A stretch of DNA of 33,297 nucleotides from Desulforudis sp. (GTDB lineage Bacteria > Bacillota > Desulfotomaculia > Desulfotomaculales > Desulforudaceae). The notes below the pieces were generated by a model. That model had not been told where the DNA came from. It was given only the letters and a program-made list of their open reading frames with translations, and did no database searches. A program made the position numbers and the translations under genes. Below, in pieces: positions 11,865-22,486 of the stretch. The DNA lies in assembly GCA_019084485.1 (NCBI GenBank), contig JAHRFU010000091.1, positions 1-33,297 on the forward strand. Direction: 5' to 3'. Numbering within the stretch: the first letter of the stretch is position 1; every line of letters begins with the position of its first letter.

Positions 11865-12051
11865 TAAATTACACCACCCTCTCTATCACCCTATTCGCTT
11901 TCGCCATACTTTGCCAAAATCCTGCCTGCCAGGAAAAAATACTGCATAACTTGTCCGATACCGGCGAACTCTGGAATTGACGTATCGCGGAAAAGGTGTT
12001 TCCATATAGAAACAATGTCATAATCCGATTAATTGCGAGCGGGGTGTTCAC

Positions 12052-12360
12052 GTGGCGATGGAGGTAGAAGTCGTAGGAGACATACCACCCAATCGTTTCG
12101 GCCGACCGGGGTGACCTCCTGAGGGATGCACGTCCGTGAGGCGGGCGGTCGCACATGAGTATAAGCTTCTGGAGGGAGTACTGGGCTGGTACTTTGGACC
12201 TTCCATCAGCCTCTCCTACCACTACAAGCCTGAACTGCAGGACAAACAGCTTCCTGTGGTCCTGATCGATGGAGTGGTCTTCGCGGAAGGAAGAATCCCT
12301 GTGAATGAGGTAGCCGACTACATTGAATCGACGGGGGTCACCCGGTTGGACGGGCGGTAG
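12052..12360 (+). CDS. candidate selenoprotein: thioredoxin-fold-like protein with in-frame TGA at 12112-12114 (U-P-P-E-G-C)
   Basis: GTG 12052/ATG 12058 frame reads (MA)MEVEVVGDIPPNRFGRPG-TGA-PPEGCTSVRRAVAHEYKLLEGVLGWYFGPSISLSYHYKPELQDKQLPVVLIDGVVFAEGRIPVNEVADYIESTGVTRLDGR; GGGGTG upstream of the GTG; beta-strand, redox-type motif, helix, cis-Pro-like QLPVVLIDG pattern. Confidence 0.6.
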
Positions 12361-12764
12361 TATCCGGCAATCTCCAAGACCATTCGCCAATGCGGCTCTG
12401 AGACAGGCACTACGGACAACCGCGGGAGGTGCACCAGCTCCCATCCCCCAAAACGTTCATCGGCTTTGATTTCCTTAAGGGTTACCGGTCTGGTTAGTCT
12501 TTCCCCGGCGCGTACTTCAATAACGAGACGGCGGGGGTTGTTTTGTTCCGGATCCGGAAAGGGATCGCTTACTACCTCCCCGGTACCGACAATGGCTCTT
12601 TCCTTGCCAGTATGGTAAAAGAAAAAATGATCTCCCCGACGCATTCCGGACATGTTCTTCAAGGCCTTAAAGTTTTTCACCCCATCCCAGAGATCCTGTT
12701 CCTGGGCTTTGAGATCATCGAAGCTGTAATCGTCGGGCTCACTCTTAAGCAACCAGTACCCCAC
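12318..12764 (-). CDS. EVE domain-containing protein
   Basis: MGYWLLKSEPDDYSFDDLKAQEQDLWDGVKNFKALKNMSGMRRGDHFFFYHTGKERAIVGTGEV. Confidence 0.94.
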   Translation of the reverse strand: MGYWLLKSEPDDYSFDDLKAQEQDLWDGVKNFKALKNMSGMRRGDHFFFYHTGKERAIVGTGEVVSDPFPDPEQNNPRRLVIEVRAGERLTRPVTLKEIKADERFGGWELVHLPRLSVVPVSEPHWRMVLEIAGYYRPSNRVTPVDSM

Positions 12765-13786: not shown

Positions 13787-15493
13787 TTGGAAACGGAGAA
13801 ATTGCGGGTCGTCATCATCGGCGGCGTCGCTACGGGTCCGAAGGCAGCAGCGCGGGCCAGGCGGATGGCACCCGAAGCAGAGATTGTCCTGGTGGACAGC
13901 GGAAGCATCCTATCATACGGCGCCTGTGGGATGCCCTTTTACTTGGAAGGCCATGTGAAGGACCTTAAACAGTTGTTACGTACAGCTTATGGTGTGACAC
14001 GCGATGAACAGTTCTTCCTGCGCGAGAAGGGCATAAACGTCCTGACGCGAACCAAGGCCACTAATATCGACCGGGAACGAAAGACTGTATCGCTTTCCAA
14101 CCTCGACACCGGGCAAGATTCCGTGATCTCCTATGACAAACTGGTACTTGCCACGGGTGCCCGTCCCACGACCCCTCCTGTTGAAGGCATTGACTTGATG
14201 GGAGTCTACCGCCTGCACCATCCGGATGACGCCTGCAAGATCATGGACAACATGGAGCATTTTAAGGAAATGGTGGTTATCGGCGGCGGGTTTATCGGCC
14301 TCGAGGTAGCCAGTGCCTTCAGCAACCGGCGTCTTTTCGTGTCGCTCATCGAACTGCATAATCAGATCCTGCCCGGTGTTTTAGATCCTGATTTGGAAGC
14401 CATTCTGCGGAAGCATCTGGAGAACCGGGGTATGGAATTCTATCTAGGCCGGAAGGTGCTCCGCTTTGAGGGAGATGCCGAAGGAAACCTAGCCCGGATT
14501 ATTACTGATCGAGACAGCATCGACGCTAATGCCGTAATTATGGCCGTGGGTGTTCGCCCTAATGTTGATCTGGCCCGGAAAGCGGGACTGGAGATCGGTT
14601 CCACGGGTGCCATTGCGGTCAATGAGTACCTACAGACCAGTGACCCTGACGTCTATGCCGCCGGTGACTGTGCGGAAACAACACATGTCCTGACCGGAAG
14701 ACGTGTCTACCTGCCGCTGGCTTCCACCGCGAACCGCCAGGGGCGAGTAGCTGGAGACAATGTAACCGGACGACGTACCCGTTTTAAGGGCGTGATGGGT
14801 ACCGCCGTATTACAGATCATGGACTGGAACGTCGGGCGAACCGGGATCGGTGACTCCGAGGCCCGTGCCTTGGGCTACGACGTTTTGACCACTGTGACGC
14901 CAGCACACGATCGAAGCCATTTCCACCCCGATCACAGTCTGGTGATACTGAAGATCATTATGGATAACAAGTCGCGTAAGGTGCTCGGTGTTCAGGCCAT
15001 TGGACCCGGAAACGTCGACAAGCGCATCGATGTGGCGGCGTCCGCGTTGCATTTTGGTGCCGGCATCGATGACCTGAGCGAACTCGATCTGGGATATGCC
15101 CCTCCCTACAATACAGTCATCGACCCCCTACAGCACACCGCCAATGCCATGCGCAACAAGGCGGACGGACTGTCCCACGCCATCACCGCACAACATCTAA
15201 AGGAAAGACTTGAAAGAGGGGAGGAACTGATCATCCTCGACGTCCGGACCGAGCGTGAGTTTAAGTTTAAGAAATTTGTGGGCGGCTCGATGACGATCCC
15301 CTTGACCCTTTCCGATCTGCGCGGGAAACTCCAGGAACTCCCGCGTGATAAACCGGTTATTGTCCTCTGCGAATCAGGCGTGCGAAGTTACGAGGCCATG
15401 CGCACCTTGAAGGGTGCGGGCTTCGAAAACGTGGAGTATCTGGAAGGCGGCCTTCAGGCTTGGCCATATGGACCTTCCGGCCTGATGTCCTAA
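13787..15493 (+). CDS. CoA-disulfide reductase / NAD(P)H sulfur (polysulfide) reductase with C-terminal rhodanese domain
   Basis: VVIIGGVATGPKAAARARRM, SYGACGMPFYLEG single-Cys active-site region, C-terminal rhodanese PVIVLCESGVRSYEAMRTLKGAGFENVEYLEGG. Confidence 0.9.
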   Translation: METEKLRVVIIGGVATGPKAAARARRMAPEAEIVLVDSGSILSYGACGMPFYLEGHVKDLKQLLRTAYGVTRDEQFFLREKGINVLTRTKATNIDRERKTVSLSNLDTGQDSVISYDKLVLATGARPTTPPVEGIDLMGVYRLHHPDDACKIMDNMEHFKEMVVIGGGFIGLEVASAFSNRRLFVSLIELHNQILPGVLDPDLEAILRKHLENRGMEFYLGRKVLRFEGDAEGNLARIITDRDSIDANAVIMAVGVRPNVDLARKAGLEIGSTGAIAVNEYLQTSDPDVYAAGDCAETTHVLTGRRVYLPLASTANRQGRVAGDNVTGRRTRFKGVMGTAVLQIMDWNVGRTGIGDSEARALGYDVLTTVTPAHDRSHFHPDHSLVILKIIMDNKSRKVLGVQAIGPGNVDKRIDVAASALHFGAGIDDLSELDLGYAPPYNTVIDPLQHTANAMRNKADGLSHAITAQHLKERLERGEELIILDVRTEREFKFKKFVGGSMTIPLTLSDLRGKLQELPRDKPVIVLCESGVRSYEAMRTLKGAGFENVEYLEGGLQAWPYGPSGLMS

Positions 15494-21590: not shown

Positions 21591-22486
21591 ACCATCCAAC
21601 TCCCAGTTCTCTTGTTGTAGATTCTCAGTCCCATAATGCCGGTCGGGCAAATAAGGAGCACAATGATCATCACCATCATCGCAATGCCATCCTTCATACC
21701 GGAGGACAGCATCCCGATCGCAAAGGCCTCAATAATTCCGAGCAGCAAACCACCGACAATGGCTCCCTTGACATTGGTGACGCCTCCGAGAATGGCGGCC
21801 ACGAAGCCTTTCAGGCCGAGCATAAACCCCATGTCGTAGGTCGCAGTGGTGATCGGCGCGATGAAGATACCGGCCAAGGCGGCTAGCATCCCGGAGAACA
21901 CGAAGGCCAGCAGCGACAGCCGTGCCGGGTTGATACCTACCAGGCGGGCGGCGTTGCGGTTGATCATCGCTGCTCGTACGGCCTTGCCCGCATATGTAAG
22001 GTCGAAAAAGGCAAAGAGCAACATCACCGCAACCACCGCCAGGCCGAGCACAAAGAGCATTTGCGGGATAATCACGGCACCCCAAAGGGCTATCGGAGCA
22101 GTATCTACAAAGGGCGGCAAAGGATAGGGGTGTGTCCCCCAGATGAGAAGGGCCGCACCCCTTAAAGCAATGGCTACACCGATAGTGATGATGATCAAGG
22201 TTAAAATTGAAGCTTTCCGTGCCGGATAGATCGCGGCCCGCTCCATAGTCGCGGCGATTACCCCGGCGATCAGGACCGCCAGGACGAATGCAGGCACATC
22301 CGGGCAACCTGCCGACCGGAGGGTTACCGCTGAGAGGGTGCCGATGGTCACGAACTCGCCAATTGCCAAGTTGAAAATGCCGGTGATGTTGAATGTGACC
22401 ACTAGGGCCAAGGCAATCAAAGCGTAAATACTCCCCAGCGTAATTCCGGAGATCAGGTACTGAATGTGCTGGCCTTCCGCACCCAA
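21554..22486 (-). CDS. livH: branched-chain amino acid ABC transporter permease
   Basis: ISGITLGSIYALIALALVVTFNITGIFNLAIGEFV. Confidence 0.95.
   Translation of the reverse strand: MGAEGQHIQYLISGITLGSIYALIALALVVTFNITGIFNLAIGEFVTIGTLSAVTLRSAGCPDVPAFVLAVLIAGVIAATMERAAIYPARKASILTLIIITIGVAIALRGAALLIWGTHPYPLPPFVDTAPIALWGAVIIPQMLFVLGLAVVAVMLLFAFFDLTYAGKAVRAAMINRNAARLVGINPARLSLLAFVFSGMLAALAGIFIAPITTATYDMGFMLGLKGFVAAILGGVTNVKGAIVGGLLLGIIEAFAIGMLSSGMKDGIAMMVMIIVLLICPTGIMGLRIYNKRTGSWMVWLRQKVGTGSR

Follow-up and report, generated by a model that had tools for sequence, protein, structure and literature searches.

A conserved in-frame TGA, very probably read as selenocysteine, in a small, predicted thioredoxin-like protein of Desulforudis and its relatives

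The window analyzed here (the whole stretch of 33,297 nucleotides from Desulforudis sp.) contains a short forward-strand frame that runs from GTG 12052 to the stop codon TAG at 12358-12360 and whose sole interruption is a TGA at 12112-12114, raising the question of whether the gene has been broken by a stop codon or is intact and decoded with selenocysteine (Sec). Read through the TGA, the translation is MAMEVEVVGDIPPNRFGRPG-U-PPEGCTSVRRAVAHEYKLLEGVLGWYFGPSISLSYHYKPELQDKQLPVVLIDGVVFAEGRIPVNEVADYIESTGVTRLDGR. The initial annotation had proposed that the TGA encodes Sec, based on the open frame, an upstream GGGGTG, and coding appearance on both sides of the TGA; it pointed to homologues, the Sec machinery of the host, and a SECIS element as the evidence to be sought, and to a nonsense mutation or a sequencing error as alternatives. 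The frame, its single TGA, and GGGGTG were confirmed, as was the C-terminal frame of 74 codons plus stop (12136..12360) beginning at GTG 12136. ATG 12058 is also in frame with GTG 12052; the latter is preferred as the start, since it aligns with Met1 of the homologues and lies 5 nt behind GGGGTG (Table 1). The GC3 value of the frame is 0.637, and neighbouring genes are alike. With a probability of roughly 0.9, we conclude that the locus encodes a 102-residue selenoprotein, thioredoxin-like and presumably a selenol oxidoreductase, in which the UGA would be read as Sec by means of SelB, Sec-tRNA-Sec, and a SECIS element.

Table 1. Positions of the proposed selenoprotein gene and its features in the window
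Feature	Position	Strand	Basis
Selenoprotein gene of 102 codons and a stop codon, starting with GTG; residue 21 is Sec	12052..12360	+	Frame and TGA shared by homologues
Ribosome-binding-like GGGGTG, 5 nt upstream of GTG 12052	12041..12046	+	Sequence; putative function
In-frame TGA, probably read as selenocysteine (Sec21)	12112..12114	+	TGA in 25/26 aligned members
TGC codon for Cys26, the proposed resolving residue in the U-X4-C motif	12127..12129	+	Alignment of members; putative role
SECIS-type hairpin with its arms at 12129-12135 and 12139-12145; the loop, 12136-12138, opens with the invariant G	12129..12145	+	Covariation
CCT codon for Pro68, the counterpart of the cis-Pro in thioredoxin folds	12253..12255	+	Alignment A1 and model

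The TGA column among homologues

Relatives of the read-through protein were found in 15 of 60 related genomes, and a profile built from 16 members matched 35 of the 113 genomes of the class. Comparison of 26 aligned members revealed TGA at the Sec column in 25 and the Ser codon TCA in the remaining one; a Cys codon (TGC or TGT) was present in none. All 26 belong to one bacterial order, Desulfotomaculales (the name being taken from a few matched records), and the same TGA is kept by relatives in about thirty sulfate-reducing and related bacteria. The alignment thus places the TGA-containing frame well beyond chance, since the homologues keep both the frame and the TGA column. "Candidatus Desulforudis audaxviator," Desulforamulus ruminis, Desulfofundulus kuznetsovii, and Pelotomaculum thermopropionicum may, we presume, be further carriers. 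A scan of 84,980 species was blind to Sec versus Cys at the column, because its patterns were drawn solely from sequence 3' of the TGA; it returned three loci, in Desulfocucumis palustris NAW-5, Desulfotomaculum sp. BL5_bin.2, and MAG DeMMO5_3, and all three carry the TGA. A tblastn search against plasmids gave no match. In one detail, the findings differ from the supposition that Sec replaces a redox Cys: the family yielded no homologue with Cys at this column, and hence no existing Cys form that Sec could be seen to replace.

The member with TCA stands in tandem with a TGA copy within one genome, and the tree places it among TGA-bearing members; on both counts, it looks like a derived loss of Sec. 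The tandem pair is located in genome G007, where L019:1519-1848 (+) adjoins L024, one copy having TGA and the other TCA at the Sec column. In another genome (G005), a second copy beside an intact one (L077:5349-5647, minus strand) looks damaged: it is split into two fragments that lie in different frames and contain additional TGA codons.

A SECIS-type hairpin and the selenocysteine machinery

Covariation was analyzed in 12 ungapped homologue sequences, column 1 being the T of the TGA. Columns 18 to 24 pair with columns 28 to 34 in a 7-bp helix, with 85.7% of the cells paired and 18 double-sided changes, and none of 500 shuffles reached the pairing value or the number of double-sided changes. 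Shifting the partner arm by 1 to 3 columns, as a control, reduced pairing to at most 57%, and RNAalifold independently predicted six of the seven pairs. The G at column 25, the first base of the apical loop, is invariant. The hairpin starts 14 nt after the UGA and 21 nt separate the UGA from the apical loop, a distance that fits bacterial SECIS elements. Two of the seven pairs are broken in the window copy, leaving five, and the free energy of its hairpin alone is not exceptional; this value being uninformative, we relied on covariation. Helix covariation in a second subgroup was not clear of its controls, and an Rfam scan of the window gave no match. The search for a SECIS element thus led to a putative one, a covarying helix with an early loop G as expected of bacterial SECIS elements, with a weaker signal in the second subgroup.

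The host genome encodes all of the components that had been looked for: a tRNA-Sec (76 bits, anticodon TCA), adjacent selA and selB genes, and selD, which itself has an in-frame TGA, with a hairpin predicted about as far downstream of it as in the present gene. tRNA-Sec was detected in 32 of the 33 related genomes checked. In the D. palustris genome (G074), which carries a TGA gene (L094), neither tRNA-Sec nor selB was detected above the cut-off; the assembly is 84% complete, and missing sequence is the likely reason. Since selB is above the cut-off in 109 of 113 genomes of the order, its presence alone cannot separate carriers from noncarriers. Together, the conserved TGA, the covarying stem, and the Sec machinery support the Sec assignment made by the initial annotation, and Sec would very probably be inserted at this UGA.

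Predicted fold, known relatives, and possible function

The AlphaFold2 model, based on four aligned sequences with Sec entered as Cys, has a pLDDT of 84.7 and the order beta-alpha-beta-beta-beta-alpha, and thus predicts the thioredoxin-like fold that had been claimed. In the model, Sec21 follows strand 1, within the loop that leads to helix 1. Pro68, which immediately precedes strand 69-72, is invariant in alignment A1 (16 members) and not in all of the members of alignment A2. Foldseek returned 481 matches at an E value of ≤10 and none at ≤0.001, the best being weak (0.028); ArsD and thioredoxin-like proteins head the list, in which 1xg8 and SelW are also present with weak E values. The model and the remote homology described below would place the protein in a thioredoxin-like superfamily together with YuzD/DUF1462 and ArsD. 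Counted by eye in A2, a partner Cys follows Sec by five (once six) residues in 18 of the 25 Sec members, a Cys directly precedes Sec in 4, and 3 have neither. Invariance of Sec in the face of a variable partner suggests that Sec is the reactive residue and that Cys26 is a resolving residue replaced in some subgroups.

Scanning of the window protein and its relatives with NCBIfam 20.0 and Pfam models gave no match above the cut-offs for the family, with sub-cut-off echoes of Thioredoxin_3, MTH895/ArsE, ArsD, and TsoC. Thioredoxin_3 and MTH895-ArsE (PF13192 and TIGR00412) were the best remote echoes, with five members each, although the scores are far under the curated cut-offs. YuzD/DUF1462 (PF07315) is likewise small and thioredoxin-like, and a profile search of PDB sequences ranked a chain of its structure 1xg8 first (E value of 0.2), but the family members have no DUF1462 match, only outer relatives passing the gathering cut-off. 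SelW (2npb) resembles the model in its thioredoxin-like fold (TM-score of 0.60/0.69); unlike SelW-like selenoproteins, for which a CxxU motif is listed (PMC13188914), the window protein has no PF10262 match. TsoC (NF045708) is also a small protein in which Sec is located near the N terminus, and one family member gave a weak match (E value of 0.093), whereas the window protein gave none and the TsoC motif, NEPxGxxU, contains no U-X4-C pair. Two small TGA-containing open reading frames matched TsoC with scores under its cut-off, L060:2363-2605 (-) in G019 (E value of 1.7e-8) and L062:4932-5183 (-) in G004 (E value of 5.2e-8); the former is located about 1.6 kb from the G019 family member.

A 2026 catalogue lists 119 prokaryotic selenoprotein families and subfamilies in its Table 1 (PMC13188914), in which a single-Sec U-X4-C thioredoxin-like family is absent; for the Tso families, this review cites Haft and Tolstoy 2025. 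Literature searches found no paper linking DUF1462 and selenium and none on selenoproteins of Desulfotomaculum, and the papers found for Pelotomaculum were unrelated, as judged from titles and abstracts. We therefore rate the family as a new selenoprotein family in comparison to the NCBIfam models and PMC13188914, through which alone the Tso families were compared; a prior description is possible.

Beyond the family, a wider TGA-bearing set, mostly from elsewhere in the phylum with a few distant relatives in the same order, aligned with it at an hhalign probability of 99.3%. This set is related to DUF1462 and ArsD; two of its members pass the DUF1462 gathering score, and no NCBIfam model was above the cut-off for the members scanned. 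The thioredoxin-like TGA loci concerned are L099, L101-L105, L111, L112, L116, L123, L125, L129, L131, L132, L134, L142, L144, and L145, and also L084-L086. Several other matches in the phylum have Cys in place of Sec. Tentatively, and at somewhat less than even odds, the window protein may represent one branch of a superfamily of YuzD/ArsD-like selenoproteins that extends across the Bacillota and has been overlooked. In this superfamily, Sec would be the fixed reactive residue and the partner Cys would move or vanish, and within this branch no Cys would replace Sec.

How the protein would act can be proposed as follows. Ribosomes would read UGA 12112-12114 as Sec with the aid of host SelB, Sec-tRNA-Sec, and the SECIS hairpin, and the product would be a small cytosolic selenol oxidoreductase with a Sec21-Cys26 pair. 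The substrate attacked by Sec21 would be oxidised, a persulfide, or a metalloid, and the resulting adduct would be resolved by Cys26 through a selenenylsulfide. A redox role is modestly favoured. No conserved gene neighbourhood or operon was detected across the family, local synteny being limited to subgroups, and the Pfam-matched neighbours in the window encode NlpC/P60, EVE, PHP, and FAD-dependent proteins. Positions 13787-15493 (+), which begin some 1.4 kb past the end of the selenoprotein gene, encode a protein in which a pyridine nucleotide-disulfide oxidoreductase is joined to a rhodanese domain; no shared context of this gene with other family members was found.

The selenoprotein might instead bind or deliver soft metals or metalloids in the manner of the arsenic metallochaperone ArsD, Sec and a nearby Cys acting as ligands. 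This is the less expected role, although ArsD resembles the model in fold, its structures (3ktb, 3mwh, and 3kgk) lead the Foldseek matches (E values of 0.028 to 0.17), relatives from the wider superfamily score against the ArsD models NF033727 and PF06953 (below the cut-off), and a vicinal Cys-Sec pair replaces U-X4-C in some subgroups. The window protein itself is subthreshold for ArsD (11.8 bits versus 27; E value of 0.31), no ars gene was present among the Pfam-matched neighbours in the window, and most members keep the redox-type U-X4-C motif and the Pro at the cis-Pro position. Selenol oxidoreductase is thus the most likely function, and soft-metal or metalloid binding comes next.

Alternatives to selenocysteine and significance

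A lone TGA in a single genome would look the same if it were a true stop dividing a longer gene into two pieces, as a result of pseudogene formation or sequencing error, and the second copy in G005 does look damaged. Coding evidence was considered on both sides of the TGA. In the group of the window protein, identities at codon positions 1/2/3 are 0.68/0.75/0.38 upstream and 0.55/0.67/0.33 downstream, and the pN/pS ratios in five close pairs are 0.22 and 0.30, respectively. As judged by these comparisons, conservation is codon-like and purifying selection acts on either side, in agreement with the coding appearance reported by the initial annotation. The nonsense mutation and sequencing error that it had considered are contradicted by the members, 25 of which (out of 26, drawn from numerous families within the order) share the TGA: homologues carrying TGA at the same column and coding conservation on both sides exclude a private mutation or error. 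With the covarying hairpin in addition, a true stop is highly improbable.

An equally slight chance is left for reading of the UGA as another residue, such as Trp, or for general readthrough. The Ser codon at the column of one member would fit such decoding, but the SECIS-like helix with its invariant loop G and the presence of the Sec machinery argue for Sec, and TGA still terminates some genes of the family (L020, L022, and L023).

The 191-residue antisense frame at 11869-12444 is long and spans the entire region but was rejected as a real gene casting the sense frame as its shadow, having no Pfam match and stops in each antisense frame of the 13 homologues checked. A mechanical scan detected other long read-through frames with one TGA, at window positions 21729, 7499, 29330, and 31386 (-), which may be frame shadows.

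The gene seemingly broken by a stop is thus very probably intact, the TGA encoding Sec. Standard gene callers are expected to truncate it at the TGA, leaving the family largely invisible, and discovery methods that rely on Sec/Cys pairing could miss it, since the family yielded no Cys form. The finding also points to a larger Bacillota set of TGA-containing relatives without an NCBIfam match above the cut-off; if the Bacillota-wide superfamily does exist, its thioredoxin-fold chemistry would depend on selenium. For sulfate-reducing and syntrophic bacteria, the proposed family would add a Sec-dominated thioredoxin-fold member to the selenoproteome.
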